From: Bacillus sp. REN16
GTDB lineage: Bacteria; Bacillota; Bacilli; Bacillales; Bacillaceae_L
DNA length: 64,000 bases
Assembly (NCBI RefSeq): GCF_020731355.1
Contig: NZ_JAJFZK010000003.1
Span: 62,001 to 126,000, forward strand
Reading direction: 5' to 3'
Part shown: one piece after another, positions 21,449 to 63,740 of the stretch
How positions within the stretch are numbered: the stretch's first letter is position 1
Layout of the letters: every line of letters starts with the position of its first letter
Translations under genes and position numbers: made by a program
The notes under the pieces: model-generated
Databases searched by the model: none
What the model was told of the DNA's origin: nothing
The model's input: only the letters and a program-made list of their open reading frames with translations

Positions 21449-21748
21449 GATTTGCTTCTTCGCACATGGATTTGCTTTTTCTCACACGGATTTGCTTTTT
21501 CACATACTGATTTGCTTCTTCTCACCAAGATTTGCTTCTTCTCACACGGATTTGCTTCTTCGCACATGGATTTGCTTTTTCACATACTGATTTGCTTCTT
21601 CACACATGGATTTGCTTCTTCGCACATGGATTTGCTTCTTCACACCTGGATTTGCTTCTTCGCACACGGATTTGCTTCTTCACATATGGATTTGCTTCTT
21701 CGCATACTGATTTGCTTCTTCTCACACGGATTTGCGTCTTAAATTTGC
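21449..21748. repeat. Tandem array A: fifteen 20-bp units, core GATTTGCTTCTTC
   Basis: Fourteen uninterrupted 20-bp units (for example GATTTGCTTCTTCGCACATG) run from 21449 to 21728, plus a diverged fifteenth. Positions 1-13 are nearly invariant and positions 14-20 vary (CGCACATG, CTCACACG, CACATACT). There are no indels in 300 bp. All three plus-strand frames are open across the array, giving spurious ORFs. It lies between the rbsK upstream region and the terminator of the NERD gene. Confidence 0.95.
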
Positions 21749-21772
21749 AAATTGTACGTTTTTGATTTTAGC

Positions 21773-21806
21773 AAAAAAATACAGCCAGCTTCCCCATGCA
21801 GGCTGT
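21773..21806 (-). terminator. Terminator of the NERD gene
   Basis: Minus-strand ACAGCCTGC pairs with GCTGGCTGT, followed by ATTTTTTTGC. Confidence 0.85.
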
Positions 21807-21813
21807 ACCTTAT

Positions 21814-22791
21814 CTAATCCAGATCATTGCACATTTCCAATAATCGTTCCACCGAAATGTGGTATTTAGCCCCTTTCTTTTCCCCGGTTTTTTCAAGCCC
21901 CAGCGAAAGTAGAATGTTGGTTGCTGTTATTCTAGATGGCAACAACAAGAATTCCCTTAGCTTTTTGTTTGTTATCGTGTTATCAATTAATAAAAAGTAA
22001 TCAAGTATCGCTTTTAAGTGGGCATCAGTCGAAGTATGACCACAATTAGTGCAGCACCATTTTCGCTTTGACCGCTTCATAGGCAGGGCATCACATACCG
22101 GGCAAAAAACACCTTTTAATAACTCACTTCCTTGAATACCAAATGATTGTAAAATGTCCTTATTCAAGGGGGTATGAAGCTTCTTTAAAAGTTTTACTAA
22201 CCTCTGCACTTGTTTGTTGTCCAACACTACCTTCTTATGCATTTTTTCAAATTGTTCCATTTTGGAAATAAGGCTGGGAGCACGAATAATATTCTTTGCA
22301 CCGGGATGGTAATCAGAAACAGTGATACTTGTCGAAGGGTTTGTAATTACAACGAGCGATTCTATCGAAGGTACCGCCATTTTATTTGCCTCTAATAATC
22401 TTTTAAGCTGAAGCCTGTGTCGATACAATTGGGTTAGTGGACATGTATAAGTTTTTTTCCTGCCTTCATAGGTTTGGTGCATTTGTTCGAAGTGATGATC
22501 GAAGTGCAGTTCTCCCTTGTGATTTTTTGCATCCACGTCAAGGATAAAGTTTGGGGAAAGAATAAAAGAATCAATTTCAAAATAGGTGTTAGTAGAGTAG
22601 TCTGGTAAGCGAAGACCATTTAGGATGTAATATTTCTTTTCGGGGAAAAACTTCAAATAATAATCCAAGGATTTTTCTCCATTATAGCCGCTGTTTAGAA
22701 GCCGATATTTTTCATCAACAGCCTCGTATATAGGATGCTTTGCCGATATTCTCCTCCTTAATGCTTTGTTTTTTCTATTATTTAGTGACAT
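21814..22791 (-). CDS. NERD-domain protein with zinc ribbon
   Basis: 325 residues. The N-terminal nuclease-related domain (about 34-160) includes GYNGEKSLDYYL, FEIDSFIL and ILDVDAKNHKG. These resemble the E...D...D-x-K arrangement of restriction-like nucleases, though the usual E/QxK reads D-A-K here. A C4 zinc ribbon CPVC...CCTNC (about 231-255) and a C-terminal alpha-helical region follow. NERD proteins are thought to act in DNA processing; the substrate is unknown. The gene is alone on its strand and flanked on both sides by tandem arrays of the same 20-bp period. Confidence 0.85.
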   Translation of the reverse strand: MSLNNRKNKALRRRISAKHPIYEAVDEKYRLLNSGYNGEKSLDYYLKFFPEKKYYILNGLRLPDYSTNTYFEIDSFILSPNFILDVDAKNHKGELHFDHHFEQMHQTYEGRKKTYTCPLTQLYRHRLQLKRLLEANKMAVPSIESLVVITNPSTSITVSDYHPGAKNIIRAPSLISKMEQFEKMHKKVVLDNKQVQRLVKLLKKLHTPLNKDILQSFGIQGSELLKGVFCPVCDALPMKRSKRKWCCTNCGHTSTDAHLKAILDYFLLIDNTITNKKLREFLLLPSRITATNILLSLGLEKTGEKKGAKYHISVERLLEMCNDLD

Positions 22792-22997
22792 TTCTCGTTT
22801 CTTTATTTTTTTTCAACTCCTTAATTTAATACTAGATAATTTCTATGTTTTCCGGCAAAATCCTCCTATATTTGACATCTTTTTTAAAAAAATTATGTAT
22901 GTATGTGTACATTGCAATTAATGGGGGTCTATTACTCCGCTTTTTAGTTGTTGATATTTACGTAATTGAGTGAGGATATGCTGCGTCTAAGGCAAAA

Positions 22998-23397
22998 GAT
23001 TTGCTTCCTCAACAACAAATTTGCTTCTTTGCAACAGGATTTGCATCTTCAACAACAGATTTGCTTCCTCGCACTAGGATATGAATCCTCAACCACAGTT
23101 TTGCTTCCTCGCACCAGGATTTGCATCCTCAACCACAGTTTTGCTTCCTCGCAACAGGATTTGCATCCTCAACCACAGTTTTGCTTCTTCGCACTAGGAT
23201 TTGCATTTTCAACTAAGGATTTGCTTCTTCGCTCCGGGATTTGCATCCTCAACCACAGTTTTGCTTCTTCGCTTCAGGATTTGCATCCTCAACCACAGAT
23301 TTGCATCGCCACATCAATATTCGCGTCTCTTTCACGATATTTGCGTCGTTTCTCCGATATTTGCGCCGTTTCTCCCATATTTGCGTTGCTTCACAAG
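22998..23397. repeat. Tandem array B: twenty 20-bp units, cores (G)ATTTGC(A/T)TC / ATTTGCGTC
   Basis: Twenty units start at 22998 and repeat every 20 bp to 23397 without any indel. In the central part, two unit types alternate (GATTTGCATCCTCAACCACA and GTTTTGCTTCCTCGCACCAG), giving a 40-bp higher-order repeat. The last four units change to the TATTTGCGTC core seen in array C. The array lies in the divergent intergenic region between the NERD gene and the LCP gene. Confidence 0.95.
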
Positions 23398-23454
23398 CCC
23401 TTCACCCTAATTCGACAACTTTCGACCGCAATGTGACACTTTTTTCAACATTTA

Positions 23455-23480
23455 TGTAACTTTTCTCCTTCCCAAACGTC
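23455..23480 (+). promoter_or_regulatory. ECF sigma-type promoter (SigM/SigX/SigW-like) of the LCP gene
   Basis: TGTAAC (23455-23460), 16-bp spacer, CGTC (23477-23480). This matches the -35 AAC and -10 CGTC signature of Bacillus cell-envelope ECF sigma factors. It lies 58 bp upstream of the chosen LCP start codon. Confidence 0.6.
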
Positions 23481-23537
23481 TAATACATGTGTACTATTTT
23501 ATTCAGCTAGTAAACTATGAAAAAGGTGTTGATAAAT

Positions 23538-24470
23538 ATGAGTCGAGTTGATCGCCATTCGAAGAAGAAGACGAAACGGAAATGGCCAAAGGTTGTTGGG
23601 ATTATCGCTCTTGTTTTATTGTTAGCCATCGGTGGATACGCCGTTTATTTATATCAATCTGTTGCAAGTACGGTCGGAAAAATGCATAGCGACCGCGGTC
23701 CATCTGACATGCGGACGGAGGAAATTGATATTTCGGAGGCGGATCCGATTTCGATCCTGCTTATGGGTGTTGATGAACGTGCAGGCGACAAGGGCCGAAC
23801 CGATACATTAATTGTGGTTACCGTTAATCCGCACACGAATTCCATGCAAATGCTGAGTATTCCGCGTGATACACGCGTTGAAATCGTCGGCAAAGGCACT
23901 CAGGATAAAATCAACCACGCTTATGCGTTTGGCGGTGTCGATATGACGATTGATACGGTTGAGCAATTTCTAGATGTACCAATCGACTACTATGTGAGGG
24001 TGAACATGGAAGGTCTTCAGCAAATCGTTGATGCGCTTGGCGGTGTTGAGGTGAATAGCACATTCGCGTTCTCATATGAGGGTGCATCATTCAGTGAAGG
24101 TCCACAGACCTTAAACGGAAAACAGGCCCTTAGTTATGCGCGGATGCGATATGACGATCCTCGTGGTGACTTTGGTCGACAGGACCGTCAAAAGCAGGTA
24201 ATCCAAGGGATTATCGATAAAGGGGCCAGCTTTACTTCTGTCACAAAAATTGATGACATCCTGGGTGCACTTGGCACGAACGTAAAAACCGATATTTCCT
24301 TTGATGAAATGAAAACCATCCAATCGAAATATAAGGGTGCTCGCCATAATATCGAGCAATACAGCATCGACGGTGTCGGTCAAACCCTGGACAGCTGGTA
24401 CTGGATCGTTTCCGAAGAGGAGCGCCAAGCCGTTTCATCACGCTTGAAAACACATTTGGAAATCGAATAA
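23538..24470 (+). CDS. LytR-CpsA-Psr (LCP) family wall glycopolymer ligase
   Basis: 310 residues from the ATG at 23538, preceded by AAAGGTG; an ATG 21 bp upstream lacks a ribosome binding site. A basic N-terminus (KKKTKRKW) and one transmembrane helix (about 20-42) anchor an extracellular LCP domain. Its hallmarks are LLMGVDERAGDKGRTDTLIVVTVNP, SIPRDTRVEI and the late SYARMRYDDPRGDFGRQDRQ with the conserved arginines. LCP enzymes transfer teichoic acid or other wall polymers from lipid carriers to peptidoglycan. The upstream ECF-type promoter suggests induction by envelope stress. Confidence 0.93.
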   Translation: MSRVDRHSKKKTKRKWPKVVGIIALVLLLAIGGYAVYLYQSVASTVGKMHSDRGPSDMRTEEIDISEADPISILLMGVDERAGDKGRTDTLIVVTVNPHTNSMQMLSIPRDTRVEIVGKGTQDKINHAYAFGGVDMTIDTVEQFLDVPIDYYVRVNMEGLQQIVDALGGVEVNSTFAFSYEGASFSEGPQTLNGKQALSYARMRYDDPRGDFGRQDRQKQVIQGIIDKGASFTSVTKIDDILGALGTNVKTDISFDEMKTIQSKYKGARHNIEQYSIDGVGQTLDSWYWIVSEEERQAVSSRLKTHLEIE

Positions 24471-24471
24471 C

Positions 24472-24502
24472 TGGGACATGGGGACAGGTTCACTTTCCCA
24501 CT
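24472..24502. repeat. Dispersed GGGACAGGT element after the LCP gene
   Basis: TGGGACATGGGGACAGGTTC followed by ACTTTCCCA, immediately after the LCP stop codon. Confidence 0.65.
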
Positions 24503-24518
24503 ATGAACAAAATCACAG

Positions 24519-24549
24519 AAGCAACCGGTCACGTGCCGGTTGCTTTTTT
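24519..24549 (+). terminator. Terminator of the LCP gene
   Basis: AAGCAACCGG / CCGGTTGCTT stem followed by TTTTT. Confidence 0.88.
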
Positions 24550-24589
24550 ACTCCTTACATGTTTTTCCTCCTTTTTCCACATACTAAAA

Positions 24590-24612
24590 GGAACGACGGA
24601 CCTGTGTCCCAA
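24590..24612. repeat. Dispersed repeat fragment (ACCTGTGTCCC)
   Basis: GACGGACCTGTGTCCCAAAG, a single-arm copy of the family. It directly precedes the ribosome binding site of the next gene. Confidence 0.5.
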
Positions 24613-24623
24613 AGGAGGTTCCC

Positions 24624-25076
24624 ATGATGAAAATAAAAATTTTACTTTGTATAGCGGTATTGTTTATATCCGTTTCACCTGTCAGTGCTGCGGAGAAGTC
24701 ACCATTTTTTGGGGTAAGTGCAACGGTAGTAAAGGTGGAGGATGGTACATATGAGGTCATAACGAAGGGTGCCGAGGAAAACGAGGGCTTTGTTTTTTCG
24801 CCAAAAGGGGTTAAGGGCGGCGAAACGATTGTGTTTAAGGTACAGGTGAAGGGTGAGGGTGCCGTCTATTTGCTTGTCGACGAGACGGATGCGCGCGGAA
24901 CTTTTTTAGCTGAGACCGTTTCGCCTGTGATTGGCCTGCATGACCCGTGGCGCACGATTCAGCTTGAGGTTGAGCTTCAGGATACCACTTCCCAAATTGA
25001 TGCAATGGTGCTTACGAATAAGCAAGAAATAACCACATTCATGTTCCGGAACGTAAAAATGAGTGTAAAAAAGTAA
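24624..25076 (+). CDS. Small secreted protein of unknown function
   Basis: 150 residues with GGAGG 5 bp before the first of two adjacent ATGs. A Sec signal peptide (about 1-23, ending VSAAE) precedes a beta-rich region with alternating hydrophobic residues, resembling carbohydrate-binding or jelly-roll modules. No cysteine, lipobox or anchor is present in the mature part. I do not recognise the family. It has its own terminator 30 bp downstream. Confidence 0.7.
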   Translation: MMKIKILLCIAVLFISVSPVSAAEKSPFFGVSATVVKVEDGTYEVITKGAEENEGFVFSPKGVKGGETIVFKVQVKGEGAVYLLVDETDARGTFLAETVSPVIGLHDPWRTIQLEVELQDTTSQIDAMVLTNKQEITTFMFRNVKMSVKK

Positions 25077-25102
25077 AGGGTACGCAAGCATAAAAAATAC
25101 AC

Positions 25103-25147
25103 AAAGAGGCAGTCCATTTCGCATCTGAATTGGGCTGCTTCTTTTTG
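25103..25147 (+). terminator. Terminator of the secreted-protein gene
   Basis: AAAGAGGCAGTCCA pairs with TTGGGCTGCTTCTTT, then TTG. Confidence 0.75.
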
Positions 25148-25221
25148 TGGAACAGCCCCAGAAAAGTACTACTATTTTGTGTTTGGACGTATATTTTATT
25201 AAAAAGTGTAAGGAGGTAACT

Positions 25222-25605
25222 ATGGACGTTGTCTACATTTTATCAATTGTAGTTGCAATTATGTTTGGGTCTATTGCCGTTTTTCAGGTATTACTTTCAT
25301 TGGGTTATCCTTTTGGTGAATTTGCGATGGGCGGGTATTACAAGGTTTTTCCCAAACATCTTCGGATTGCAAGTGTGGTAAATGCTATCATCCTTTTATT
25401 AATGGGCACCGTGTTTCTGCAGCATACTGGCGTAATTAACGTTTTTCATTCTTTGCCAACCAATCTATTGGTATGGATTATTACCATTTTTCTCGGTATA
25501 AACACAATCGCAAATCTGATATCCCGCAGTAAAAAGGAAAGAATGGTTATGACGCCATTATCAGGTATTACCTTTTCACTTTGTTTAATTATTGCATTGT
25601 CATAA
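25222..25605 (+). CDS. Small four-helix integral membrane protein
   Basis: 127 residues from the ATG at 25222, which has AAGGAGG 5 bp upstream; the longer frame from 25147 starts inside the preceding terminator. Four hydrophobic segments (about 2-22, 45-67, 80-98, 108-126) and few charged residues indicate an integral membrane protein. The loop GYPFGEFAMGGYYKVFP resembles small conserved membrane proteins of Bacilli, but I cannot name a function. Confidence 0.7.
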   Translation: MDVVYILSIVVAIMFGSIAVFQVLLSLGYPFGEFAMGGYYKVFPKHLRIASVVNAIILLLMGTVFLQHTGVINVFHSLPTNLLVWIITIFLGINTIANLISRSKKERMVMTPLSGITFSLCLIIALS

Positions 25606-25613
25606 AAACAAAA

Positions 25614-25788: not shown

Positions 25789-25810
25789 TTTGGTTTTCCT
25801 CCTCTTAAGG

Positions 25811-27767: not shown

Positions 27768-27786
27768 CCTAGAATCCCTCCATTTT

Positions 27787-42460: not shown

Positions 42461-42685
42461 GATTTGCGGTGCTGGTCACATATTTGCGTCGGTTCACAGA
42501 TATTTGCGTCAAATTTCAATTATTTGCTTCAGCTGGGACAGGATTTACGTCAATTCACAAATATTTGCGTTGGCTTTCATTTTTTTGCGTCGATCTACTG
42601 ATATTTGCGTCAAATCTCATTTTTTTGCGTCAGCCAAGACAGGATTTGCGTCGTTCCGCTCAGTTTTGCGTCAACACACATTTTT
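42461..42685. repeat. Tandem array C: eleven units of 20 bp (two of 21), core ATTTGCGTC
   Basis: Core TTGC positions are 42464, 42484, 42504, 42524, 42545, 42565, 42585, 42605, 42625, 42646 and 42666. The core TATTTGCGTC is shared with the last units of array B; the remaining 10-11 bp vary. It lies upstream of the SEC-C gene and downstream of the giant hydrolase gene. Confidence 0.92.
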
Positions 42686-42694
42686 CACAAAAAA

Positions 42695-42794
42695 TACTGT
42701 CACTATCCAAGAAATACTGTCACTAATCCCGATTTACTGTCACTATTTTAAAAATACTGTCACTAATCCCGATTTACTGTCACTAGCCCAAAAT
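42695..42794. repeat. Tandem array D: five 20-bp units, core TACTGTCACT
   Basis: TACTGT starts at 42695, 42715, 42735, 42755 and 42775. The second halves alternate between ATCCCGATT and other sequences. It directly continues array C, with the same period but an unrelated core. Confidence 0.92.
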
Positions 42795-42836
42795 TAAAAC
42801 CCGAACGCCCACGAAAGGCACTCGGGTCCCCACTAC

Positions 42837-45800
42837 TTAAACCTGTATTTTCAACGTCTGTCCAACACTCAATATGTCACTCGTTAGGTTATTCACCGTT
42901 TTTATGTTGGCAACGGTGGTATTATACCGATTGGCAATTCCGTATAAGGTATCACCGGACGCGACTGTATAGACGACAACGTTTGTTGGTACCTTTAACA
43001 CTTGCCCGACGTAGATCATGTCTGATGTTAAGTTGTTGGCATTTTTTATGGCGGTCACGGTTGTCCCATTTATCGAAGCAATCCGAGATAGTGTGTCGCC
43101 CGCTGCGACTGTATAATTCACAGTATATGCAGGTGTAGACAAAGAAGGTGCTGGCGGAGGTATGACCACACTTTCCGCGACATCCGTCGGAATCCGCAAT
43201 ACTTGTCCGACATACAACGAATCTGATGTTAATCCGTTTGCTTCCTTCAGCTCACTCACCGTTGTATCATTCCGATTTGCGACTCCCCAAAGCGTATCTC
43301 CCGCCACGACGGTGTACGTTTTGTAGTTCTGAATGGGTCCCGTGTACACCGGTGATACCACCGGAACGGTGTTAGGCAATGTGGTTGTGTAGCTGTTCCA
43401 GACGCTTTTGTTTTCCTGGCCGATGCTCCAGTTTCCAACACCGCGAATATTGTACTTGCCAACAAGTTCGAGCTTTTCCTGAATCGACTCATCATTTTCA
43501 AACCATATCGTGTAGGTTCCCGGTGAAAGCGCGGTTCCATTTACAAATGTTACTGGGTCGCCAGCTTTTATCGTGATCGTCGCCTTTGGTGTTTTGCTCA
43601 CCTCATCAAACACAACGGTGCCGTTATAGCGGTCAATCAAGGTTTGAACCTGCGTATTTGAAATTCCATAGCCGCCATAGCTTTGACCTTCCATCCAATA
43701 GCGCCCAAAATGTGCGATTCCAAGGACGACTTTATCTGGCGCGACATCTTGCGCCAGCGCATACTGAATTGATTTTTCAACCCACGAATAGCTTGCGACC
43801 GAGCCAGGATTGCCACCCTGATAGCTCTCGTCGTATGCCATGATCATCAGATAATCTGCGTATTTCGCAAGATTCGCGTAGTCATACGACCCATGCCAGC
43901 CCGACGTCCAGCCATTCGGATTAGCCGCAACCGCAACGGAAACTTCCTTTGTCGGCGGAATTTTTTCACGCAGCAGCCGGACAAATTCGGTATAGTTTGT
44001 GCGATCCGCATCGGTTACATTTTCAATATCGACATTGACTCCATCAAGGTTATAACGCGCGATTGCATCCGCAATTTGCTGGGCTGCGAGCTCCTTGTTC
44101 GCAAGCATCGCCCGACCCACATCGCGGTTCCAATGGTTGCTTAAAAATGGAACAACGCGAATACCTTGTCTATGCATGGTCTCGATAAAATTCGGGTCAA
44201 CCTGGTAGGTAAGCTTCAGCGTCCCGTCCGGATTGATATCAAAATAGCTGGGTGAGACGATGTTCACGGCATGTCCCGTTGAATTCACCGTATTCACATA
44301 TTCCTTTGTATTGCCGAAATACATATAGCCAAGGTTCACCACCTCGCTTGCTGTAATCGGCAGCCGTAAGGTTTGGTTCGGCTGAAGCACGTCACTCGTC
44401 AAATTGTTCAGCGTCATCAATGAATCAACCGTCGTGTTGTAACGCTTCGCCACAGAATACAGGGTGTCTCCCTGGGTAACTGTATACGAGCTCAGTGAAA
44501 CATTGGTTGCCCCGCTTGTATTTCCTGCCTGATCCGTTTGCGTAACAGAAGCTGATGCAACCTTAGAAGCCTTGTCTACATACACATCCACCGAATAAAA
44601 TCCATTCTCATCCGCATTTGCGATTCGCGTTACGATAACATTTTTATCAGCATCAAAAAGGGAAACTTCAACCTTGGCGTTCGCCTCAGCCGTTCCAATT
44701 ACAGTATAAATGTACTGCATGTTTTCATAGCGGAAGCCGTTTTTCGTTGCGGCCGCATTTTCAACGACTGTATCCTTCACAAGCGTTAGTGCCTCCACAA
44801 TGCTTCGATTTCCAGCCCGGTCTGTTTGCCGCGCTTCAAAGGTCAAAGGTCCATCCTTCAGTCCCGACAGATTCAGATTGGCACTGAACGCACCGTTTAC
44901 AACCTTAGCGGTCTGTCTCACCGTTGTCGTTCCATCACTGACGACCATCTCAACGGTCGCACCTTCCTCCACGCTTGAGCCCGTAATTGTAAAATTGGAC
45001 TGGTTCGCTTGGTTCACATAATTCGGTTGAGTCGTCACCACCCCACCCGGTGCCGTTGTATCTTTTTCAAATGTTAAGGTTCGTGTTTCGCCAGCGTTTC
45101 CAGCGTTATCGGTCGCACGGAATGTGGCCGTCAGCTCACCATCTTTCAACGTGCTTAGGTCAAAAATCTTCTCAAACCTGCCGTCGTCACTCGTTCCAAC
45201 TGTTTTAGAAACAACATTGACACCATCCGAAATTTCGACCACAACTGTACTATGTGGTTCGACGACACCGCGAATCGGATAGACCAACACATTATCTGAA
45301 AAAATAGGCAGTGGCGTTTCCAACTGAATCTCTTTTGGTCCCACCGTATCCTTGACCAATGTTTTTGTTACAGCAGGGCTTACATTACCCGCTCGGTCGA
45401 CCTGGGTTAATTCAAACGACAGATCTCCGTCCGAAAATGCAGTTAGGTCAACCGGAACACGGTATTCGCCGTTCTCATTCGTGGTTGCGTTCACGACCTG
45501 CACTTGGCCATTTCCGTTAAAAATGCGAATCTGAACATCTGTGTTTGCCTCGGCTTTACCAATTAGTTCGTAAGTTGTTTGATTTTCACCTGTAATAAAA
45601 TGATTATTAGTAAAAATCGGTGCGATAGGCGCCTTGGTGTCTTTTTCAACCGTCACATCACTGACATTACTTGTGACGCCTGCCGCACTCGTTTGAAACG
45701 CAGAGATTGTCAGGCTCGTATCGAGCAAGGCACTTACATCAACTTCGGCATTGTATTCCCCATTTTCGTTAGCTGTTGTCGATGCGATAATATCCGGATT

Positions 45801-47894
45801 CACCCCATCTGACACTGTGATATCAACGGTTGTACCTGGCTGTGCCATTCCGAAAATGTGATAGCTAGTTGCTGTTTGACCGTTGATCATCTCCGTATTA
45901 TTGATGACTGGTGGCGCTAGGGCAGTTTCCTTGATGAGAGTCGCCTGCTCGATCCTACTTCGGTTTGCGTGCTCGTCGATTGCACTTGCTGTGACAAAAA
46001 TTTCGCCGTCATTCAGGGTACGAAGATCAATTGATGTCCGAAACTCGCCGTTTTCATTCGCAACGGCTTCCACCGTAATCTCTAGATTCACTCCGTCAGA
46101 TAACACAATTTGTACAGTCGCACCTGGATCTGCCATCCCAAGTAGTGTGTAGCTGTTGGCGTTTTGTGTGTTGACCGTCTGCTTCGGATCAAGTACAGGC
46201 TCGCCTACAAAGGAATCCTTCGTCACGGAAACCTGTGCTGGTGATGAACTATTTTGGGCTTCATCTGTTGTGGTTGCCGTAATTGTGATCGCTCCATCAT
46301 TCAATCCGGTAAGATTGAGTGCCGTTTGGAATGCGCCGCTTACGTCCGTTGTAACTGTTGTTTCCGCTGCTGGATTAACACCATCTGTGGCACGAATCGT
46401 AATGGTCGCATTTGGCTCAGCCGTTCCTGCAAACGTATAATTAGCTGCATTTTGACCGGTAATGTCTCGTAATTCCTGAAAAATGGGCGCCTCGACCGTG
46501 GTATCCTTTTTCACCGTCAGCTTCGTCAAGCCACTTTCGTTTCCAGACGAATCAACAGCTTTCGTTGTAATCGAAACCGGACCGTCGCGCAATGCACCCA
46601 GACTTACAAACGCACTAAATTCTCCTTTTTCATTCGCGAGAACTTCCGTTGTGATCGGTGCATTCACTCCATCAAAAAAGGTAATTTGCACCCGTGATGC
46701 AGGCTCGGCCGTTCCTTTCACCGGATAGGCCGCAGCCGACTGGCTATTGATGATTTGTGTATGAACCAAGGTTGGTGCATCAAGGGTTACTGTTGGAACA
46801 TCCGGTGCAGGTTTTTCCGTTGGCACAGGTTCCTTAGTTACAGTCGTCTCCCCAGGAATCGTCAGCACCTGACCGATTGATAAATTCGTTGTTGTTAAAT
46901 TATTCGCAGCTTGAATCGCACCAATTGTCGTTCCAAACCTTACTGAAATGCTATATAATGTGTCGCCCGCGACTACGGTATAAGTAGACGTGACAGGTGT
47001 CGGTGCGGGAGTTGTCACAATTGTCTCGGGTTCATTTCCTGAAACCTTCAGCACCTGCCCAATACTCAGCACGTTTGATGTCAGATTGTTGAGCGACTTT
47101 AACTCATCAACTGTCGTCCCAAATCGTGTAGAAATTCCATACAGCGTATCACCCGCAACAACAGTATAGGTCGCCGTAACAGGAGTCGGTGCAGGAGTTG
47201 TCACCGTTTCTTCTACCGGTTTTGTTGTTGGCGGAGGTGGTGTTACGGTTTCCTCCACCGGTTTTGGCGTAGGCGCTGGTTGTGTCACGGTTTCCTCCGC
47301 CGGTTTTGGCGCACTTACAGACTGAAGCTGTGGAATCCGCAATTTTTGTCCAATCATCAGCATGTCCGATTTTAAGGAGTTCGTTGTGCGGATTTGATCA
47401 ACCGTTGTGTTATAACGCTTTGCAATACTGTAAAGTGTGTCGCCTGAGGTCACAGTATATGTAAAAAACGGCAATCTCAGTTGTTGGCCAACAAACAGCA
47501 TATTCGACGCAAGCCCATTGATTTTTTTAATCGAATCCACCGACACATTGTAGCGCATTGCGATCGAGTATAATGTATCGCCCGCTTTTACTGTGTACAT
47601 GTCGTTGACGGTTTGAGTTTGACCGCTGATCGTTTGCGCCCCGACATTTGGCGCATTCGTTCCTAAATAGAAGGTTGTAATCAGCATCGAGCCCGCTAGC
47701 ACCTTTGCGACCTTAATCGGCAGGTGCGGGAATTTTTCTTTTACAAGTACGCGGATTTGTGTATTCAGGTCCTTTTTTTCCTGTTGAAAATGACCGCCAA
47801 ACTCTGATGCAAATTCTGTCAATCCAGTCTCCACAAAGACAACTAGTGTATAATCATCATCATTTTTCATAAGCTTATACCCTTGAATTTCCAA
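42837..47894 (-). CDS. Giant LysM / Ig-like / GH18 peptidoglycan hydrolase
   Basis: 1685 residues from a TTG at 47894 (AAGGGGGTG 6 bp upstream; the earlier TTG includes that site). A cytoplasmic-looking N-terminus of about 60 residues and one hydrophobic segment (about 64-78) come first. LysM domains follow near 100-142, 145-188, 242-285 and 304-347, with a Pro/Thr-rich linker before the third. Eight Ig-like repeats of about 88-100 residues span about 373-1150. A fifth LysM, a GH18 domain with catalytic DGVNVDIE (E1291) and three C-terminal LysMs complete it. The GH18 part resembles the spore cortex glucosaminidase SleL/YaaH. It probably cuts wall peptidoglycan while bound through its eight LysMs. 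Confidence 0.9.
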   Translation of the reverse strand: MEIQGYKLMKNDDDYTLVVFVETGLTEFASEFGGHFQQEKKDLNTQIRVLVKEKFPHLPIKVAKVLAGSMLITTFYLGTNAPNVGAQTISGQTQTVNDMYTVKAGDTLYSIAMRYNVSVDSIKKINGLASNMLFVGQQLRLPFFTYTVTSGDTLYSIAKRYNTTVDQIRTTNSLKSDMLMIGQKLRIPQLQSVSAPKPAEETVTQPAPTPKPVEETVTPPPPTTKPVEETVTTPAPTPVTATYTVVAGDTLYGISTRFGTTVDELKSLNNLTSNVLSIGQVLKVSGNEPETIVTTPAPTPVTSTYTVVAGDTLYSISVRFGTTIGAIQAANNLTTTNLSIGQVLTIPGETTVTKEPVPTEKPAPDVPTVTLDAPTLVHTQIINSQSAAAYPVKGTAEPASRVQITFFDGVNAPITTEVLANEKGEFSAFVSLGALRDGPVSITTKAVDSSGNESGLTKLTVKKDTTVEAPIFQELRDITGQNAANYTFAGTAEPNATITIRATDGVNPAAETTVTTDVSGAFQTALNLTGLNDGAITITATTTDEAQNSSSPAQVSVTKDSFVGEPVLDPKQTVNTQNANSYTLLGMADPGATVQIVLSDGVNLEITVEAVANENGEFRTSIDLRTLNDGEIFVTASAIDEHANRSRIEQATLIKETALAPPVINNTEMINGQTATSYHIFGMAQPGTTVDITVSDGVNPDIIASTTANENGEYNAEVDVSALLDTSLTISAFQTSAAGVTSNVSDVTVEKDTKAPIAPIFTNNHFITGENQTTYELIGKAEANTDVQIRIFNGNGQVQVVNATTNENGEYRVPVDLTAFSDGDLSFELTQVDRAGNVSPAVTKTLVKDTVGPKEIQLETPLPIFSDNVLVYPIRGVVEPHSTVVVEISDGVNVVSKTVGTSDDGRFEKIFDLSTLKDGELTATFRATDNAGNAGETRTLTFEKDTTAPGGVVTTQPNYVNQANQSNFTITGSSVEEGATVEMVVSDGTTTVRQTAKVVNGAFSANLNLSGLKDGPLTFEARQTDRAGNRSIVEALTLVKDTVVENAAATKNGFRYENMQYIYTVIGTAEANAKVEVSLFDADKNVIVTRIANADENGFYSVDVYVDKASKVASASVTQTDQAGNTSGATNVSLSSYTVTQGDTLYSVAKRYNTTVDSLMTLNNLTSDVLQPNQTLRLPITASEVVNLGYMYFGNTKEYVNTVNSTGHAVNIVSPSYFDINPDGTLKLTYQVDPNFIETMHRQGIRVVPFLSNHWNRDVGRAMLANKELAAQQIADAIARYNLDGVNVDIENVTDADRTNYTEFVRLLREKIPPTKEVSVAVAANPNGWTSGWHGSYDYANLAKYADYLMIMAYDESYQGGNPGSVASYSWVEKSIQYALAQDVAPDKVVLGIAHFGRYWMEGQSYGGYGISNTQVQTLIDRYNGTVVFDEVSKTPKATITIKAGDPVTFVNGTALSPGTYTIWFENDESIQEKLELVGKYNIRGVGNWSIGQENKSVWNSYTTTLPNTVPVVSPVYTGPIQNYKTYTVVAGDTLWGVANRNDTTVSELKEANGLTSDSLYVGQVLRIPTDVAESVVIPPPAPSLSTPAYTVNYTVAAGDTLSRIASINGTTVTAIKNANNLTSDMIYVGQVLKVPTNVVVYTVASGDTLYGIANRYNTTVANIKTVNNLTSDILSVGQTLKIQV

Positions 47895-47990
47895 ACGGAA
47901 CACCCCCTTATCCAATCATTACTTTTTAGTTTCTCAACTTCCTTTTAATTCATTCCTTTTTTAGTTAAGATTGACGCAGGGGGGATTGCT

Positions 47991-49689: not shown

Positions 49690-49878
49690 TCTTCTCGAAG
49701 AATTTGCGCCCAGATTTTTAGGCACACACGATGTGGGTCACAAAGACGTTGCCACAGGAAGTGGTGTACTTAGTCTTTGATCCTATGATCGAAAACTTCC
49801 TTTAAAAATCTGTGGCATCCGCCGGAGGCTTTCACTTAATTCAGCAGAAGTAGTAAACTTCTGCTGTATTAAGTGAAA
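49690..49878. repeat. Structured repeat element with GCATCCGCCGGAGGC motif
   Basis: CAGATTTTTA (about 49710) pairs with TAAAAATCTG (about 49803). This encloses GGTCACAAAGAC/GTCTTTGATCC and CCAC-AGGAA-GTGG stems. GCATCCGCCGGAGGC follows at 49816-49830, and a long perfect hairpin CACTTAATTCAGCAGAAGT/ACTTCTGCTG-TATTAAGTG spans about 49833-49875. From memory, similar segments recur in Bacillus genomes. It could be a MITE-like element or a structured RNA. Confidence 0.6.
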
Positions 49879-54050: not shown

Positions 54051-54168
54051 GGTTTACTCCACGATAAAAGCCTTTCGGGTGCAGCCGGAAGGCGGAGTAA
54101 CTAATGGGGTGTACATTTTCGCACGGGGATTAGGGTCCACGCATACGCAAATTCCCCTTCCCCAGCGG

Positions 54169-54296
54169 ATATCGGACCAATTTTCGAATATATCGGACAA
54201 AATTGGCAAGATATCGGACAAAATTGGCAAGATATCGGATCATATTTTAAATATATCGACCCAAAACCGAAATATATCGGACAAAGCCAAAATTCC
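54169..54296. repeat. Tandem array E: six 21-bp units, core ATATCGGACA
   Basis: ATCGGA/ATCGAC cores start at 54171, 54192, 54213, 54234, 54255 and 54276, exactly 21 bp apart. Two adjacent units are identical (ATATCGGACAAAATTGGCAA plus G). It lies between two plus-strand genes. Confidence 0.92.
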
Positions 54297-58556: not shown

Positions 58557-60155
58557 TTGCTTCAAAATGATATTCCAAAGGATACGGTCATGCATTTTTC
58601 CGAAAAGCTTCGCGACATGATCACATTTGAAAATGAAGATGACCGCAATTTAATTAAAAAAGGACTGAACCTCTACCGTCAGGGGAGTGTTTATAATGTA
58701 CAATACAACGGACAAACACTTGAAGGCCGCGTCCAGGACGTCACAGCTGTTGATGTCACCCTTGATCTTGATTTTTTAGAAATGAGCAGCTGTTCATGCC
58801 CTGATCCTATCTTTTGCCGGCATCGGATGGCGTTGTTTTTCTATATGTACGCAAGCGTTGACCGTGTCGGATCCCTGCTTGACCAGTGGAAAGAAGGCAA
58901 TAAACCAAAGCCAACGCTGGCATCAATTCCCGTGAAAAAAGGAAACGTTTTACAGCGTGTGGAATACAAGGAGAATTCACTCGAGAGCTGGTTAACCCTT
59001 TTCAACAGTGAATATGCACGCTTTGAATCAGCTCGAGGAGATAAAAATGTTTATTTTTTCGCGACACTATACCATTCCCTTTTTCAAAATATAAAAAGGA
59101 AAGCACCTCGCTCTGAGGAACTAAAACGCTTGTATCACATCCATGCGGCTCTATTTTGTATCCGAAAAACGGTTGAATCGCTCGAACAAATTGAAGTCCG
59201 AAATTACCAGGTGGACACCTATATCAAGCCTTATTTTCATAATTTCACCGATATTGTGCTCGATAACTCACTTGAAATGCGGAAGGTGTCTCTCCCATTT
59301 TCACTGGACCAGCTACTAGAGGAAAGCATTCCGATCATCCGTGAAACGCTGCTATCCGAAACCTTGTTCCAATATGAGCGCATGCAAATGTACCGTCTGC
59401 TTTGGGCAACCTTTTTTAATCGAAAAAAATGGCTCGAAATCGAGGAAAATGCGCTGGACACTGAAAATCACGTGCATAAGATTGCCTTTGCCCATAATCG
59501 CTTTTTACAAAAGGACGACGCGACCGCAATTGATACAATGAAACAACTTGGGCATCAGGCGACACCGTACAGCTTTTGGTGGATTTCCTATCTATCTGAA
59601 GCAAAAAGTTGGGACAGGGCTCGCCTTTGGATTGACTATGCGCTAGAAGGAATCCGCGACTACATTTTTGGAATTCAGAGCTATGAAGGGCGCCGGCACA
59701 TGACGATGCTGTTTTTACAGAACATCATGACGTATTCTGATGAACGCGATTCAGCCGTTTATCTTCACGCACTGAAACAGCTTTTGCCGTACAGCTATGT
59801 GGAATACAACGACTTTTTGCTTGAAACCGACCAATACCGGAAATGGGTCGAACTGCAAATCATGGTCGGCTATGAGGTCGATGATATGGACCGTTCAATT
59901 TTAAAAGAAATCGAATCTCTTGACCGGGGGGCTTTGCTTCCTCTTTACCACCAGGCCGTCGCCAAGGCCATTGAAGGTAAAAACCGGCCAAGCTATAAAA
60001 GGGCCGTTAAATATTTGCGAAAAATCCGGACTCATTACAAAAAGTTAAAACAAGAAGACCGATGGGACGACTATATTACAAAGCTTGCCACAGTGAATAA
60101 ACGATTACGTGCCTTCCAACAGGAGCTAATGCGGGCTTCAATGATTTCAGAGTAA
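58557..60155 (+). CDS. ywqB: SWIM zinc-finger protein (YwqB family)
   Basis: 532 residues from a TTG at 58557 with GGGGAGTGAG upstream; an ATG at 58590 with AAAGGA is an alternative, and the longer frame from 58404 precedes the TATAAT-like promoter. The SWIM motif SCSCPDPIFCRHR (about 77-90, CxC...CxH) is intact. The rest is alpha-helical. It is followed after 12 bp by the SNF2 helicase gene; the ywqB-ywqA pair is conserved in Bacillus. SWIM proteins bind DNA or partner proteins; this one probably works with the helicase (inference). Confidence 0.88.
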   Translation: MLQNDIPKDTVMHFSEKLRDMITFENEDDRNLIKKGLNLYRQGSVYNVQYNGQTLEGRVQDVTAVDVTLDLDFLEMSSCSCPDPIFCRHRMALFFYMYASVDRVGSLLDQWKEGNKPKPTLASIPVKKGNVLQRVEYKENSLESWLTLFNSEYARFESARGDKNVYFFATLYHSLFQNIKRKAPRSEELKRLYHIHAALFCIRKTVESLEQIEVRNYQVDTYIKPYFHNFTDIVLDNSLEMRKVSLPFSLDQLLEESIPIIRETLLSETLFQYERMQMYRLLWATFFNRKKWLEIEENALDTENHVHKIAFAHNRFLQKDDATAIDTMKQLGHQATPYSFWWISYLSEAKSWDRARLWIDYALEGIRDYIFGIQSYEGRRHMTMLFLQNIMTYSDERDSAVYLHALKQLLPYSYVEYNDFLLETDQYRKWVELQIMVGYEVDDMDRSILKEIESLDRGALLPLYHQAVAKAIEGKNRPSYKRAVKYLRKIRTHYKKLKQEDRWDDYITKLATVNKRLRAFQQELMRASMISE

Positions 60156-60167
60156 AGAGGTGAGACA

Positions 60168-62894
60168 ATGCTTTTAGTTCATGCAGAATGGATTTCAGAA
60201 AAAGGATTCACTATTTGGTGTACAACAGAAGACGGCTACGAGCTTAGTGTTCATAATTGGAAGCAAAATCTCTTTATCTGGCACGAAGCCTCCTTTTACG
60301 GAACTTTTCTTGAAGAAAATGAGAATGCGGTCCACCTTTCACCCTGGCAGGCCTTCACCTTTTTCGCGGAATTGCCCGTTAATTCACTGATCCAAATCGA
60401 GCTTAGTGAAAGTGCCGAGCACTATCATACGATGTCTCAGGACCTGTTTCCGCTCATTGAGGACGGCCAATTTATGCCTGATTTTGAATACTGGCACGAG
60501 TATGAGCGCTTTGGCTGGAAACCGGTTGATACGGAGCTAACTGGCTTTGCGGCAGAGTGGTTTTCGGAAGCCATCACCGACTGGATCCAATCTGACTCTA
60601 CATTGTCCGACGCCTGGGAAGAGATTTCAGAAACCTTCCCTCTTGTAAAAAGTAGCGCCGGCGCCGAGTCTGTCGTCGATGAAAACAATTGGCTTGAACG
60701 GATTGGGTGGAAGGAAGACCATACACCATTTGACGTCATGCTTCAAATTGAAGAACCAGAGGTGGATAATGGGGCTTGGACGCTCCACACAGTGCTTCGC
60801 AAGAAAGCAAAGCCTCATACACTGTATACCACTATGCCACGAGAATGGACAGATTTTGCGGACAAAATTGAAAACGACCAAGCAATGTGGTGCAAGCTAA
60901 TCCCATGGCTTCAAGATGAAGGCGGCATTCTTCACGAGTTAAACGAACGCCAAGCGTGGGACTTTTTAACGGAAGCGAGCACTAGGCTTATGGAAGCTGG
61001 AGTCGGCATCCTATTGCCAGCCTGGTGGCAAGCCATCAAGGACGCGCAGCTTGCAATTAAGGCCAAGGTCAAAACATCCGCTGGTGGCGGCCGCCAATCC
61101 TTTGTCGGGTTGCAGTCCATCATTAATTTTGACTGGCGCTTTTCAACAAATGGTGTAGAGCTTTCTGAAGAGGAATTTATGTCGCTGGTGAATGAAAAAA
61201 GACGCTTAATTAAAATTCGCGGCAAATGGATTAAGCTTGACCCGGCGTTTATCAAACAGGTTCAATCGATCCTTGAGCGTGCGAATAAAGAGGGACTTCA
61301 TGTGCGTGATGTTCTCGAGCAGGAGCTCCTTTCACTATCGGAAAAAGCAGAGCGTGAGGAACAAGAAGCGGCAAGCGCATTTGCAGGTATACAGATTGAA
61401 CTCAATCGCCACCTGTCGCAAATGATTACCCAGTTAACGGATATCCAGGAGATTCCGAAAGCAGACATTCCGGACACGTTCAGAGGTGAGCTTCGTCCTT
61501 ACCAGCAGCAGGGTGTCGACTGGCTCTTATTTTTAAGGAAATTTGGATTTGGGGCTTGCCTAGCCGACGATATGGGGCTCGGAAAAACGATCCAAATGAT
61601 TGCCTACTTTTTAGCGGTCAAAGAAAATGATGCCAAGCCCGCGCTCATTATTTGCCCAACATCCGTCCTTGGAAACTGGCAAAAGGAGCTTGAAAAATTT
61701 GGACCGGATTTACGTGTCCACCTTCATTACGGATCCAACCGTTTGAAGGGTGAAGAGTTTGCCGAGAGTGCTAAAGAGGCCGACATCGTCCTCACCTCCT
61801 ACGGCTTGTCCCATATGGATGAAGAGGAAATTTCCAATTTTGACTGGGGAACAGTTTGTCTTGACGAGGCGCAGAACATAAAGAATGCACAAACAAAACA
61901 GTCGCGCGCGATTCGTAAACTGCGAGGCGACCATAATATTGCCTTAACCGGAACTCCGATGGAAAATCGTCTGACAGAGCTTTGGTCGATTTTTGACTTT
62001 ATCAATCGCGGTTATTTGGGCAGCCTAGGCGGTTTCCAGAAACGGTTTGTGTCCCCAATCGAAAAGGACCATGATCAGGAAACAATTGCTGAGCTGCAAC
62101 GCTTGATCAAACCATTTTTACTAAGACGCACGAAAAATGACGAAGCTGTTGCTTTGAATCTGCCGGATAAGCTTGAGCAGAAGGAATATTGCCCGCTAAC
62201 AGTGGAACAGGCATCGATTTATGAGCAGCTTGTGAAGGATACGCTGGACCAAGTTGAACAGCTTGCGGGCATGCAGCGTAAAGGTCTGATTTTAAAAATG
62301 CTCGGGCAATTAAAGCAGGTTTGTGACCATCCCGCGCTTTATTTGAAGGAGCAAGCTCCTGCGAATGTGGATGAACGCTCTGTGAAAATGGAGAAGCTGC
62401 TTGAGTTAGTTGATCACGTTCGTGACCAGGACGAAAGCTGTTTGATTTTTACCCAGTATATTCAAATGGGTGAGATGATTCAGGATGTGCTTCAAAAACG
62501 CCTTGGAGAAACAGTGCAATTTTTGAATGGCAGCGTGCCGAAAGTACAGCGTGACAAGATGATCGATGGCTTCCAAAACCGCGAGTTCAATATATTAATC
62601 CTGTCTCTGAAAGCAGGCGGAACCGGTTTGAACTTAACGGAGGCGAACCACGTCATCCACTATGATCGCTGGTGGAACCCGGCCGTCGAAAACCAAGCAA
62701 CCGACCGTGCCTACCGCATCGGCCAAAAGCGCTTCGTCCACGTGCACAAGCTCATCGCCACCGGCACACTCGAAGAAAAAATCGACGAAATGCTCGAGAA
62801 AAAGCAATCGCTCAACGACGAAATCATCACCAGCGAAAACTGGATCACCGAACTCTCCACCAACGAACTCAAGGAGTTACTCGGGGCGTTTTAG
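60168..62894 (+). CDS. ywqA: SNF2-family DNA-dependent ATPase/helicase (YwqA)
   Basis: 908 residues. A family-specific N-terminal region (about 1-430) precedes two RecA-like lobes. Motif I is DDMGLGKT (K473), motif II DEAQ (566-569), motif III TGTPMENRL, motif V LKAGGTGLNLTEAN and motif VI QATDRAYRIGQ. It is an ATP-driven double-strand DNA translocase likely to remodel protein-DNA complexes or act in repair. AAAGAGGTGAG precedes the ATG by 5 bp. It is co-transcribed with ywqB. Confidence 0.95.
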   Translation: MLLVHAEWISEKGFTIWCTTEDGYELSVHNWKQNLFIWHEASFYGTFLEENENAVHLSPWQAFTFFAELPVNSLIQIELSESAEHYHTMSQDLFPLIEDGQFMPDFEYWHEYERFGWKPVDTELTGFAAEWFSEAITDWIQSDSTLSDAWEEISETFPLVKSSAGAESVVDENNWLERIGWKEDHTPFDVMLQIEEPEVDNGAWTLHTVLRKKAKPHTLYTTMPREWTDFADKIENDQAMWCKLIPWLQDEGGILHELNERQAWDFLTEASTRLMEAGVGILLPAWWQAIKDAQLAIKAKVKTSAGGGRQSFVGLQSIINFDWRFSTNGVELSEEEFMSLVNEKRRLIKIRGKWIKLDPAFIKQVQSILERANKEGLHVRDVLEQELLSLSEKAEREEQEAASAFAGIQIELNRHLSQMITQLTDIQEIPKADIPDTFRGELRPYQQQGVDWLLFLRKFGFGACLADDMGLGKTIQMIAYFLAVKENDAKPALIICPTSVLGNWQKELEKFGPDLRVHLHYGSNRLKGEEFAESAKEADIVLTSYGLSHMDEEEISNFDWGTVCLDEAQNIKNAQTKQSRAIRKLRGDHNIALTGTPMENRLTELWSIFDFINRGYLGSLGGFQKRFVSPIEKDHDQETIAELQRLIKPFLLRRTKNDEAVALNLPDKLEQKEYCPLTVEQASIYEQLVKDTLDQVEQLAGMQRKGLILKMLGQLKQVCDHPALYLKEQAPANVDERSVKMEKLLELVDHVRDQDESCLIFTQYIQMGEMIQDVLQKRLGETVQFLNGSVPKVQRDKMIDGFQNREFNILILSLKAGGTGLNLTEANHVIHYDRWWNPAVENQATDRAYRIGQKRFVHVHKLIATGTLEEKIDEMLEKKQSLNDEIITSENWITELSTNELKELLGAF

Positions 62895-62900
62895 CGCAAA

Positions 62901-62946
62901 CATGCAAACATGGGGACGGTTCCGCTGTTTACCTATATTTTTCCAA
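62901..62946. repeat. Dispersed repeat, GGGGACGGTTCC subtype
   Basis: TGGGGACGGTTCCGCTGTTT followed by ACCTATATTTTTCC, directly after ywqA. Confidence 0.6.
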
Positions 62947-63034
62947 ATGGACAAAAGGACAGCTTTCCTGTCCCGGTCCCGGTCCCGCTTCGGGTTTCGG
63001 GTTTCACTATGTGTTTTTTTCGAAAACGAGCTTT

Positions 63035-63180
63035 GCGGTATACCAGATACTGAATTTTCATGTCGTGGTATGCCGGAAACAGGCTTTGCGATATACCAAA
63101 TGCGTAATTTGCACCCTGTGATATACCGCAAACCGCCCTATCGGTATATCAGACGCAAAAATAGGACATAGCGGTATACC
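63035..63180. repeat. Array F: GCGGTATACC motif at alternating 30/23-bp spacing
   Basis: Palindromic-like GCGGTATACC variants start at 63035, 63065, 63088, 63118, 63141 and 63171. Spacings are 30, 23, 30, 23 and 30 bp, a 53-bp higher-order period. The sequences between motifs are poorly conserved. It lies just upstream of the small basic gene at 63205. Confidence 0.85.
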
Positions 63181-63204
63181 GCAACCACAAAGGAGCTGAT
63201 TCGT

Positions 63205-63330
63205 TTGGCTGAAAAACCAACCAAACCAAAGAAAAAGGCGAAAAAGTTTGTGCCCAGTGAAAAGCACAAAGACAAAACCGAACCATGGCAAAGGTTCTAC
63301 CATCTCGTCGAAGAAAAACTAAAGAAATGA
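63205..63330 (+). CDS. Small lysine-rich protein (41 residues)
   Basis: A TTG at 63205 has AAAGGAG 9 bp upstream. The 41-codon frame is strongly basic at the start (EKPTKPKKKAKKFVP) and ends in an amphipathic helix (WQRFYHLVEEKLKK). A perfect terminator lies 3 bp after the stop codon. Array F ends 25 bp upstream of the start codon and would include its promoter region. Not recognised; the charge suggests nucleic-acid or ribosome association. Confidence 0.65.
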   Translation: MAEKPTKPKKKAKKFVPSEKHKDKTEPWQRFYHLVEEKLKK

Positions 63331-63333
63331 TCT

Positions 63334-63366
63334 AAGGGTGGTGACTGTTGTCACCACCCTTATTTA
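63334..63366 (+). terminator. Terminator of the lysine-rich protein gene
   Basis: Perfect 12-bp stem AAGGGTGGTGAC / GTCACCACCCTT with a 4-nt loop, then ATTTAT. Confidence 0.8.
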
Positions 63367-63380
63367 TAGTAAAACCCCAT

Positions 63381-63740
63381 GCGTGCAAATAGCCGCGCGA
63401 ACACGCATATCCTCAATTTAAGATGCAAATAGCCTCACGATGATGCATATCTTCAGCTTAAGATGCAAATAGCCGCGCGAGGATGCATATCCTCAATTTA
63501 AGATGCAAATAGCCGCGCGATGATGCATATCTTCAGCTTAAGATGCAAATAGCCGCGTGATGATGCATATCTTCAGCTTAAGATGCAAATAGCCGCGCGA
63601 TGATGCATATCTCCAGTTTAAGATGCAAATAGCCGCGCGAGGATGCATATCTTCAGTTTAAGATGCAATTAGCCGCGCGAGGGTGCATATCCTCAATTTA
63701 AGATGCAAATAAGCCGAATGAAGAAGCAAATCCCCACTCA
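63381..63740. repeat. Tandem array G: nine 40-bp units built of two 20-bp halves
   Basis: Eight full units run from 63381 to 63700, each AGATGCAAATAGCCGCGCGA followed by TGATGCATATCTTCAGCTTA or a close variant, plus a diverged ninth. The halves share GATGCA(A/T)AT, so the underlying period is again 20 bp. It lies between two convergent genes; its diverged end touches the stop codon of the minus-strand gene. Confidence 0.95.

Follow-up and report, generated by a model that had tools for sequence, protein, structure and literature searches.

When a 64,000-nucleotide stretch of Bacillus sp. REN16 (positions 62,001 to 126,000 of contig NZ_JAJFZK010000003.1; hereafter the window) was analyzed, intergenic tandem arrays were observed in which a short core recurs at a nearly fixed distance, most often 20 or 21 bp, with variable spacers between the cores. 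We lean towards the explanation that these are arrays of sites read by dedicated sequence-specific DNA-binding proteins, acting at the DNA level and perhaps organising the origin-proximal chromosome. The genome that contains the window, G000 (4.64 Mb; contig C23), was compared with eight further members of the genus (G001 to G008).

Tandem arrays were called by Tandem Repeats Finder (TRF) and then checked by sequence reading and a core pattern scan. The seven arrays listed by a first-pass annotation of the window were recovered at or near their reported places by TRF and sequence reading. The arrays and the terminators beside them are as follows.

21447..21740, plus strand: array A, family 1 core ATTTGC[GTA]TC, 20-bp period, 14.7 units, 0% indels (TRF, sequence, scan)
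21772..21808, minus strand: intrinsic terminator pointing into array A, behind the leftward NERD-domain gene (21814-22791) (sequence, hairpin/T-tract scan)
22998..23386, plus strand: array B, family 1 core, 20/40-bp period (TRF, sequence, scan)
42483..42685, plus strand: array C, family 1 core, 20-21 bp spacing (TRF, sequence, scan)
42692..42793, plus strand: array D, family 4 core TACTG[TC]CACTA, five units, exactly 20 bp (TRF, sequence, scan)
42790..42826, minus strand: intrinsic terminator pointing into array D, behind the LysM/glycosyl hydrolase 18 gene (42837-47915) (sequence, scan)
54168..54293, minus strand: array E, family 3 core TGTCCGATAT (ATATCGGACA on the plus strand), 21-bp period (TRF, sequence, scan)
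About 63030..63184, no strand: array F, 53-bp class, inverted pairs of GCGGTATACC-like halves (30/23) (sequence, period clusters)
63336..63360, plus strand: terminator hairpin before array G, GGGTGGTGAC..GTCACCACCC (same hairpin in G004 and G007; another in G005)
63384..63716, minus strand: array G, family 1 core (GATGCAAAT/GATGCATAT on the plus strand), 20/40-bp period, 0% indels (TRF, sequence, scan)

Array G had been described with a core of its own. However, its core GATGCAAAT is the reverse complement of ATTTGCATC, and therefore A, B, C and G constitute one family. The earlier statement that A, B, D and E contain no indels was confirmed for A, for D (42695-42793 in TRF, 40-bp period, 0% indels) and for the part of B from 22998 to 23304 (40-bp superperiod, 7.7 copies, 0% indels), which is followed by a less regular 20-bp tail to 23386. 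In E it applies to the first 72 bp only (54168-54239, 21 bp, 0% indels in TRF), as the continuation to 54293 carries small indels. Array F, previously reported as a 30/23 alternation, was assigned to a separate 52-53 bp class with 13 strong clusters in a 1.23-Mb sample of G000.

Periods and core families

This sample, about a quarter of G000, included the window, and lag counts were performed on its first 836 kb. When 9-mer self-matches were counted, 403 were observed at lag 20 and 98 at lag 21, whereas the other lags from 9 to 39 gave 2 to 35. Further peaks were found at lags 40 (1780), 41 (115), 42 (207), 52 (441), 53 (61) and 60 (399) and at the long lags 80 (1735), 84 (105) and 100 (342), with 2 to 49 matches at all remaining lags between 9 and 100. 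The preference for 20-21 bp proposed from the window was thus not refuted, and the lag counts and the cluster census of the 1.23 Mb extend it well past the window.

The census identified 185 periodic clusters, of which 101 lie inside genes and were set aside, leaving 84 intergenic clusters. Among the 48 strong intergenic clusters (at least 15 matching positions), 31 have periods that are multiples of 20/21 bp, including one AT-rich, doubtful case (C12:254439, lag 62) and two halves of a single array split by an N run at the start of contig C3. Another 13 have a period of 51-53 bp or double this value, and four have other periods. There are, therefore, two preferred periods rather than one. Contig C3 itself begins within a family 1 array with the N run inside it (L061, 1-633). 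Long arrays thus break the assembly or stay hidden, and the numbers and lengths of the arrays are probably underestimated.

Six direct-repeat cores were defined in G000: F1 (WTTTGCDTC), F2 (AATTGCGCNNTA), F3 (TGTCCGATAT), F4 (TACTGYCACTA), F5 (TTATGGCCAATAAAT) and F6 (ATGGTTTTTATT). Pattern scans located the same core with differing spacers at many loci. The two-core F1 pattern ATTTGCNTC-N11-ATTTGC has 166+15 (forward+reverse) matches in the whole G000 genome and none when read backwards; the backwards control was 0 in every genome pattern scan that had one. Most intergenic cores are inside arrays rather than outside (231:7 for F1, 36:6 for F2 and 13:0 for F3), and the backwards words of F1 to F4 gave 2:2, 0:2, 0:0 and 0:0 (inside arrays:other intergenic). 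In coding DNA, the F1 to F4 cores occur 64, 18, 7 and 1 times and their backwards words 22, 10, 9 and 3 times.

Spacing was measured in arrays in which at least 60% of the steps were 20/21 bp or multiples (clusters within called genes contribute 7 F1 and 3 F2 steps). In the accepted arrays of G000, 287 of 311 F1 steps are exactly 20 bp and 11 are 21 bp, and all 11 F4 steps are 20 bp. F3 has 11 of 14 steps at 21 bp, the remainder being 42 or 63 bp, and F5 is mostly spaced at 20 bp. F2 is mixed (34 steps at 21 bp and 18 at 20 bp, n=53), and alternation of the two steps is somewhat favoured (23 alternations vs 18 repeats; 10 vs 0 in hand-copied lists). The same acceptance rule in three other species gave 21 bp for 59 of 66 F3 steps and 20 bp for 12 of 12 F5 and 19 of 22 F4 steps. 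One F1 array holds 57 consecutive steps of exactly 20 bp, and arrays reach 58 units.

At 10.5 bp per turn, a 20-bp step rotates each site by about -34 degrees, and a long F1 array therefore winds round the helix. It had been suggested that every core faces the same side of the DNA. This simple picture fits exactly only for F3, the family of array E, which keeps 21 bp; family 1 and array D are at 20.0 bp, and the AATTGCGC family is mixed. Spacing thus seems to be set by the individual reader and not by B-DNA alone.

Inverted arms make up the 52-53 bp class, as in ATGAAGGAC-N27-GTCCTTCAT-N7. Six of its 13 strong clusters are located between convergent genes, compared with 61 convergent ones among the 449 intergenic gaps of 150 bp or longer. 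At L109 (G000:C3, about 114970-115190), four TCAATCAAACGTTTGTTTGA-like palindromes with 53-57 bp spacing were observed, and similar ones were found at C23:48120 and in G012. From their likeness we take them to resemble operators of a TetR-type regulator.

Constraint and change at orthologous sites

When orthologous arrays from G004, G005 and G007, close species that are about 92% identical, were compared, differences were found at 45 of 751 core positions and 95 of 620 spacer positions, so that cores change 2.5 times slower in the ten ortholog comparisons. The Fisher p of 1.7e-8 is too small because these comparisons reuse species and loci, and one of them (F3c) runs into a misaligned stretch at its end. 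Moreover, cores were placed by fuzzy matching in a single species, a procedure that somewhat favours conserved cores. The contrast is clearest for F3 (core 3/108 vs spacer 22/139 for F3a and F3b alone). It is not uniform, as F4 showed 4/110 vs 4/89 between G007 and G004, and F5 showed 4/70 vs 2/30 between G004 and G007 and 7/56 vs 4/24 between G004 and G005.

Gaps and substitutions numbered 279:2072 in other intergenic DNA and 9:119 in arrays. Five of the array gaps are exactly 20 bp, and the four non-unit gaps compare with about 16 expected, which makes them about four-fold rarer (Poisson P about 4e-4, calculated by hand; array positions were taken from regular spacing in a single species, a definition biased towards few indels). 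These ortholog comparisons agree with the earlier proposal that spacing and core are under constraint. The dedicated mechanism for amplification of 20-bp units that had been offered as an alternative is not needed, although whole-unit gain or loss does occur, as the five 20-bp gaps indicate.

The core word can differ between species. Pairs of TATGGGACA at 21 bp were detected 56 times in G006 (ten loci), four times in G002 and not in the seven other genus genomes. The F3 pairs TGTCCGATAT-TGTCCGATA at 21 bp, a pattern one base stricter than that for TATGGGACA, were found in G000 (20), G004 (24), G005 (30) and G007 (5), all of which are without TATGGGACA pairs; G002 has one and the four others, G006 among them, have none. 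Thus, G006 uses the word TATGGGACA and four sister species use TATCGGACA, each at exactly 21 bp, and one lone TATCGGACA was found in an 80-kb stretch of G006.

Orthologs of array D contain 5 (G000), 7 (G002), 8 (G004), 9 (G005), 3 (G006) and 10 (G007) units, counted by eye, and in all six genomes the terminator of the LysM/chitinase-like gene directly precedes the array. Beyond it, G000 has F1 (array C), and G004, G005, G006 and G007 have F5-type units. The C/D locus of G001 and G003 has a different upstream gene and F1 units or remnants, and in G008 the neighbouring gene had no match. F3 arrays orthologous to array E were found in G004 and G005, and G007 has two orthologous units. At the site of array G, five F2-type (AATTGCGC-type) units were found in G007 and none in G004 or in G005, which has the other terminator. 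Thus, arrays at orthologous sites can persist, change word or be absent. Just ahead of the array G terminator, a small lysine-rich open reading frame (about 63205-63330) is conserved in G004, G005 and G007 by eye. In G005 (L147; C33, about 237480-238450), a terminator hairpin and five or six F3 units together form a block that recurs about five times, roughly every 186 bp.

Genomic position and competing explanations

The main contig of G006 is 4.55 Mb long and carries dnaA at 3.578 Mb. All ten TATGGGACA loci and all seven F4 loci of this genome are within 0.95 Mb of dnaA (17/17; P about 4e-7 for 17 independent loci and about 3e-5 if 12 are independent, calculated by hand for an assumed circular chromosome). 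When the contigs of G000 were placed relative to the origin by homology to G006, 18 strong 20/21-bp clusters were counted on C23 (381 kb sampled; distances of mapped points from the origin about 0.2 and 0.4 Mb), 9 on C12 (400 kb; about 0.75 and 1.0 Mb), 3 on C3 (137 kb; about 0.6 Mb) and 1 on C4 (100 kb; about 1.5 Mb). None was found on C1 (210 kb; about 1.1 Mb), which has a three-unit F5 array below the threshold and an F2 array beyond the sampled part.

According to the explanation that we favour, the arrays would be rows of binding sites, with one reader, or one specificity, for each core family. Binding would be cooperative, with one protomer for roughly each 20-21 bp, on double-stranded DNA between transcription units. 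Arrays would grow and shrink by whole units and be kept by selection for occupancy. The role would be a chromosomal one, in which DNA near the origin is organised, anchored or insulated, and not promoter control; it is preferred because the arrays are mostly behind terminators, the cores are mostly bound to arrays and the neighbours are mixed. We infer the protein reader, the cooperativity and the chromosomal role alike, the role being the weakest link. A repeat-reading DNA-binding protein had been proposed for the window before; the array pattern fits such sites, and no binding protein was identified.

A number of observations weigh against this explanation. At orthologous sites, arrays are gained, lost or replaced by a different family, and no array is therefore essential by itself. 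The origin-proximal bias is suggested by one near-complete chromosome (G006), a single assembly, and a sample of G000. In G015, of another genus, the loci of one family range from 0.87 to 5.39 Mb, and no dnaA-sized frame was seen at the contig start. Orientation is at most weakly biased relative to the origin: the arrays pointing towards it in G000 are 13/17 for F1, 3/3 for F4, 5/10 for F2, 1/4 for F3, 1/3 for F5 and 1/1 for F6, and in G006 9 of 10 TATGGGACA loci point towards dnaA and F4 is mixed. The position behind terminators, a point in its favour, was counted without a random-position control: 27 of 39 loci have a terminator-like hairpin with a T-tract directed into the array, and one further locus has an outward-facing hairpin only. 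Neither F2, F3, F4, TATGGGACA nor ATGAAGGAC had a match in the genome of G008, and F4 is less confined to arrays than the other cores, with 11 intergenic cores inside listed arrays and 5 outside (backwards control 0).

The neighbouring genes also count against it. When 77 proteins beside 20/21-bp or 52-bp arrays were scanned, no recurrent reader family was found, and the commonest Pfam family, the DNA-binding domain Sigma70_r4_2, occurred in 3 of 77, a figure without a background count. These 77 were taken from 93 listed flanking proteins; the 16 omitted by manual choice comprised neighbours of in-gene, other-period or doubtful clusters, a protein next to a 52-bp array (L108:18336) and the large LysM protein. 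The neighbours in general were mixed housekeeping genes. Moreover, 12 of 19 non-genic arrays between two leftward genes precede a called start codon by at most 235 bp. Gene calling relied on a home-made codon-usage script that missed some genes (e.g. 21814-22791), so these distances are approximate. As many arrays are near starts, promoter control is also possible.

Such control would be exerted if the arrays were long cooperative rows of operators for ordinary transcription regulators, which we regard as improbable. The arrays are intergenic, the 9-11 bp cores resemble half-sites, and the distances to start codons point the same way; between divergent genes are 6 of the 29 strong 20/21-bp clusters with both neighbours called (131 of 449 gaps of at least 150 bp are divergent). 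However, the cores are mostly array-bound (231 vs 7 other intergenic cores for F1, with F4 as the exception at 11 vs 5), the arrays are behind terminators and reach 58 units, and their neighbours are functionally mixed. Neutral or selfish minisatellites, in which 20-bp units multiply by replication slippage in the tolerant DNA that follows terminators, without a trans-acting reader, are unlikely, too, but have to be taken more seriously than operators. The whole-unit indels, the 40-bp superperiods inside arrays, the orthologous sites without an array or with another family and the position of the arrays in dispensable DNA all suit such an origin. Slippage alone, however, does not yield one core at many loci with differing spacers. 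The slower change of cores than of spacers, the scarcity of 1-bp indels, the two preferred periods and the one-base core differences common to all loci of a species also argue against it.

Elements that act as RNA (Rho entry sites, 3'-UTR stability elements or antitoxin-like RNA repeats) are very unlikely. The arrays are near gene 3' ends, the plus strand of family 1 looks pyrimidine-rich, and the one 52-bp array that was folded gave a strongly structured RNA (z -7.8). However, A on both strands, B and G folded no better than shuffles (z +2.25, +1.26, +0.82 and +0.44), 27 of 39 arrays lie past a terminator, strand is not consistent relative to the neighbouring gene, and no Rfam match was obtained at any window array. 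Debris of a transposition system such as REP-associated tyrosine transposases (RAYT) and their repetitive extragenic palindromes (REP) has a slighter chance still. Y1 transposases were found in seven of the nine genus genomes, with six matches in G000. In 20 Y1 loci (about 1.5 kb each side), however, F1 to F4 cores occurred at most twice per locus and never as an array, the 20/21-bp arrays contain no palindrome, and G003 has no Y1 match yet 29 ATGAAGGAC matches. A RAYT origin of the 20/21-bp arrays was rejected.

Two fully read Y1 loci (L197 and L201) are flanked by GGGGACGG palindromes, with matches at several other Y1 loci. Palindromes of the type GGGGACGGTTC / GGGACAGG...GTCCC, found at 21311-21360, 62912-62922 and many other loci, are probably the REPs of those RAYT-like Y1 transposases.

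To return to arrays read by proteins, a bolder version is doubtful in our view: an undescribed chromosome-organising system in a Bacillaceae lineage, with several paralogous proteins of diverging specificity that would polymerise on phased 20-21 bp arrays located between transcription units around the origin. Reader and core would co-evolve fast enough for sister species to use different words, a bacterial counterpart to centromeric satellites and the proteins that bind them, which also evolve fast. If the arrays are protein-read at all, they would represent a large, fast-evolving set of bacterial DNA-protein interfaces, and reader-site co-evolution would be directly testable in species pairs with TATCGGACA and TATGGGACA. 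The arrays also offer ready-made phased substrates for studies of cooperative DNA binding, and would be a reason not to treat intergenic tandem repeats as inert.

Distribution and comparison with known systems

A total of 60 genomes, 51 of them outside the genus, were examined for F1. Besides G000, forward+reverse matches were found in G002 (46+13), G001 (3+8) and G003 (3+3), with one match each in G006 and G008 and none in G004, G005 and G007. Outside the genus, two of the 51 genomes (G031 and G057) gave one match each, and both look coding by eye. A three-unit family 1 pattern was found in contigs of Bacillus timonensis MM10403188 and AF060A6 and of Bacillus sp. HNG. The matches L040, L043 and L046 outside the genus are simple or other tandem repeats in unrelated metagenome bins and were rejected as non-members by eye.

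F4 is present in eight of the nine genus genomes, and F2 matches were found mainly in G000 (37) and G001 (25). The F5 pattern had no match in G006, though two F5-like units are visible at its C/D locus. The 29 matches in G003 concern ATGAAGGAC as an arm of the 52-bp class. The single F1 match of G008 is apparently coding, and this genome constitutes a natural negative for finding the reader gene.

Eight genomes of other genera in the same family were sampled (13 to 140 kb each), and clear arrays were observed in three (G012, G014 and G015). At 21 bp, G012 has GTTAAGTATTT and G015 has TGGCTAATA, the latter with no occurrence in two other species of the genus of G015. All three also contain 51-52 bp units (L170-L174, L175-L179 and L185-L189, with words such as CTGTCCGAA/TTCGGACAG). 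The same two periods thus occur with other words, and the architecture is not tied to one core. The 51-52 bp arrays seem to be a broader, separate phenomenon.

Array B had no blastn match in plasmid and phage collections. Array patterns matched four viral contigs (L190, L191, L192 and L193), probably by coincidence, because 2.9 million contigs must hold many 20-21 bp repeats; the F4 pattern had no match in viral contigs. The related contigs L190 (7150-7400) and L191 (1-260) contain 21-bp TATCGGACA arrays that adjoin a phage replication module (Sak4-like protein, exonuclease, helicase and primase), and these are either a coincidence or a phage copy of the F3 word. Three F1-like GACGCAAAT units, spaced at 20 bp, were seen in AT-rich DNA of the related contigs L192 (about 1170-1225) and L193 (about 7320-7370).

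No description of these arrays was found in the open-licence PMC literature, among the matches listed. The nearest published case found is the TAACTGA direct repeats of Beggiatoaceae, Cyanobacteria and Bacteroidetes. Both have a short fixed word, many intergenic direct-repeat arrays, a patchy distribution and a reader that is unknown. The published word is a single heptamer that, in its main species, is mostly located just upstream of start codons with a proposed action on translation (PMC4679880), whereas several cores, variable spacers of about 10 bp, a 20/21-bp lock and a position mostly behind terminators were observed here.

REP and bacterial interspersed mosaic elements (BIME) with RAYT are likewise extragenic, near gene ends and multi-copy, and the inverted arms of the 52-bp class look BIME-like. 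However, the 20/21-bp arrays are non-palindromic, A, B and G fold like shuffles, and a different palindrome accompanies the RAYT-like genes here. Iterons of plasmids and centromere arrays share direct repeats of about 20 bp, a conserved core and fixed spacing, but occur as one or a few sites adjoining the gene of their reader, whereas many loci and several cores were found here. Beside the arrays, no family was found in more than 3 of 77 proteins, in a scan that a reader beside one single array would escape. The RacA, RefZ and Spo0J sites of Bacillus are also several chromosomal sites concentrated around the origin, but they are single palindromic sites and not arrays. The short and long tandemly repeated repetitive sequences of cyanobacteria (STRR/LTRR) are intergenic tandem repeats of unknown role in one lineage, with other unit lengths and without the core-spacer plan at 20/21 bp.

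The arrays do not follow a CRISPR/TIGR-type plan, since spacers recur (40-bp superperiod) and no neighbour family is shared beyond 3/77; effector models were not searched separately. For type III toxin-antitoxin systems, no toxin family was found among the 25 most frequent neighbour Pfam families (Pfam only). Elsewhere in the window, an Rfam Bacillaceae-1 RNA (66.7 bits) was identified at 49723-49789 on the minus strand, in a stretch with short open reading frames only.

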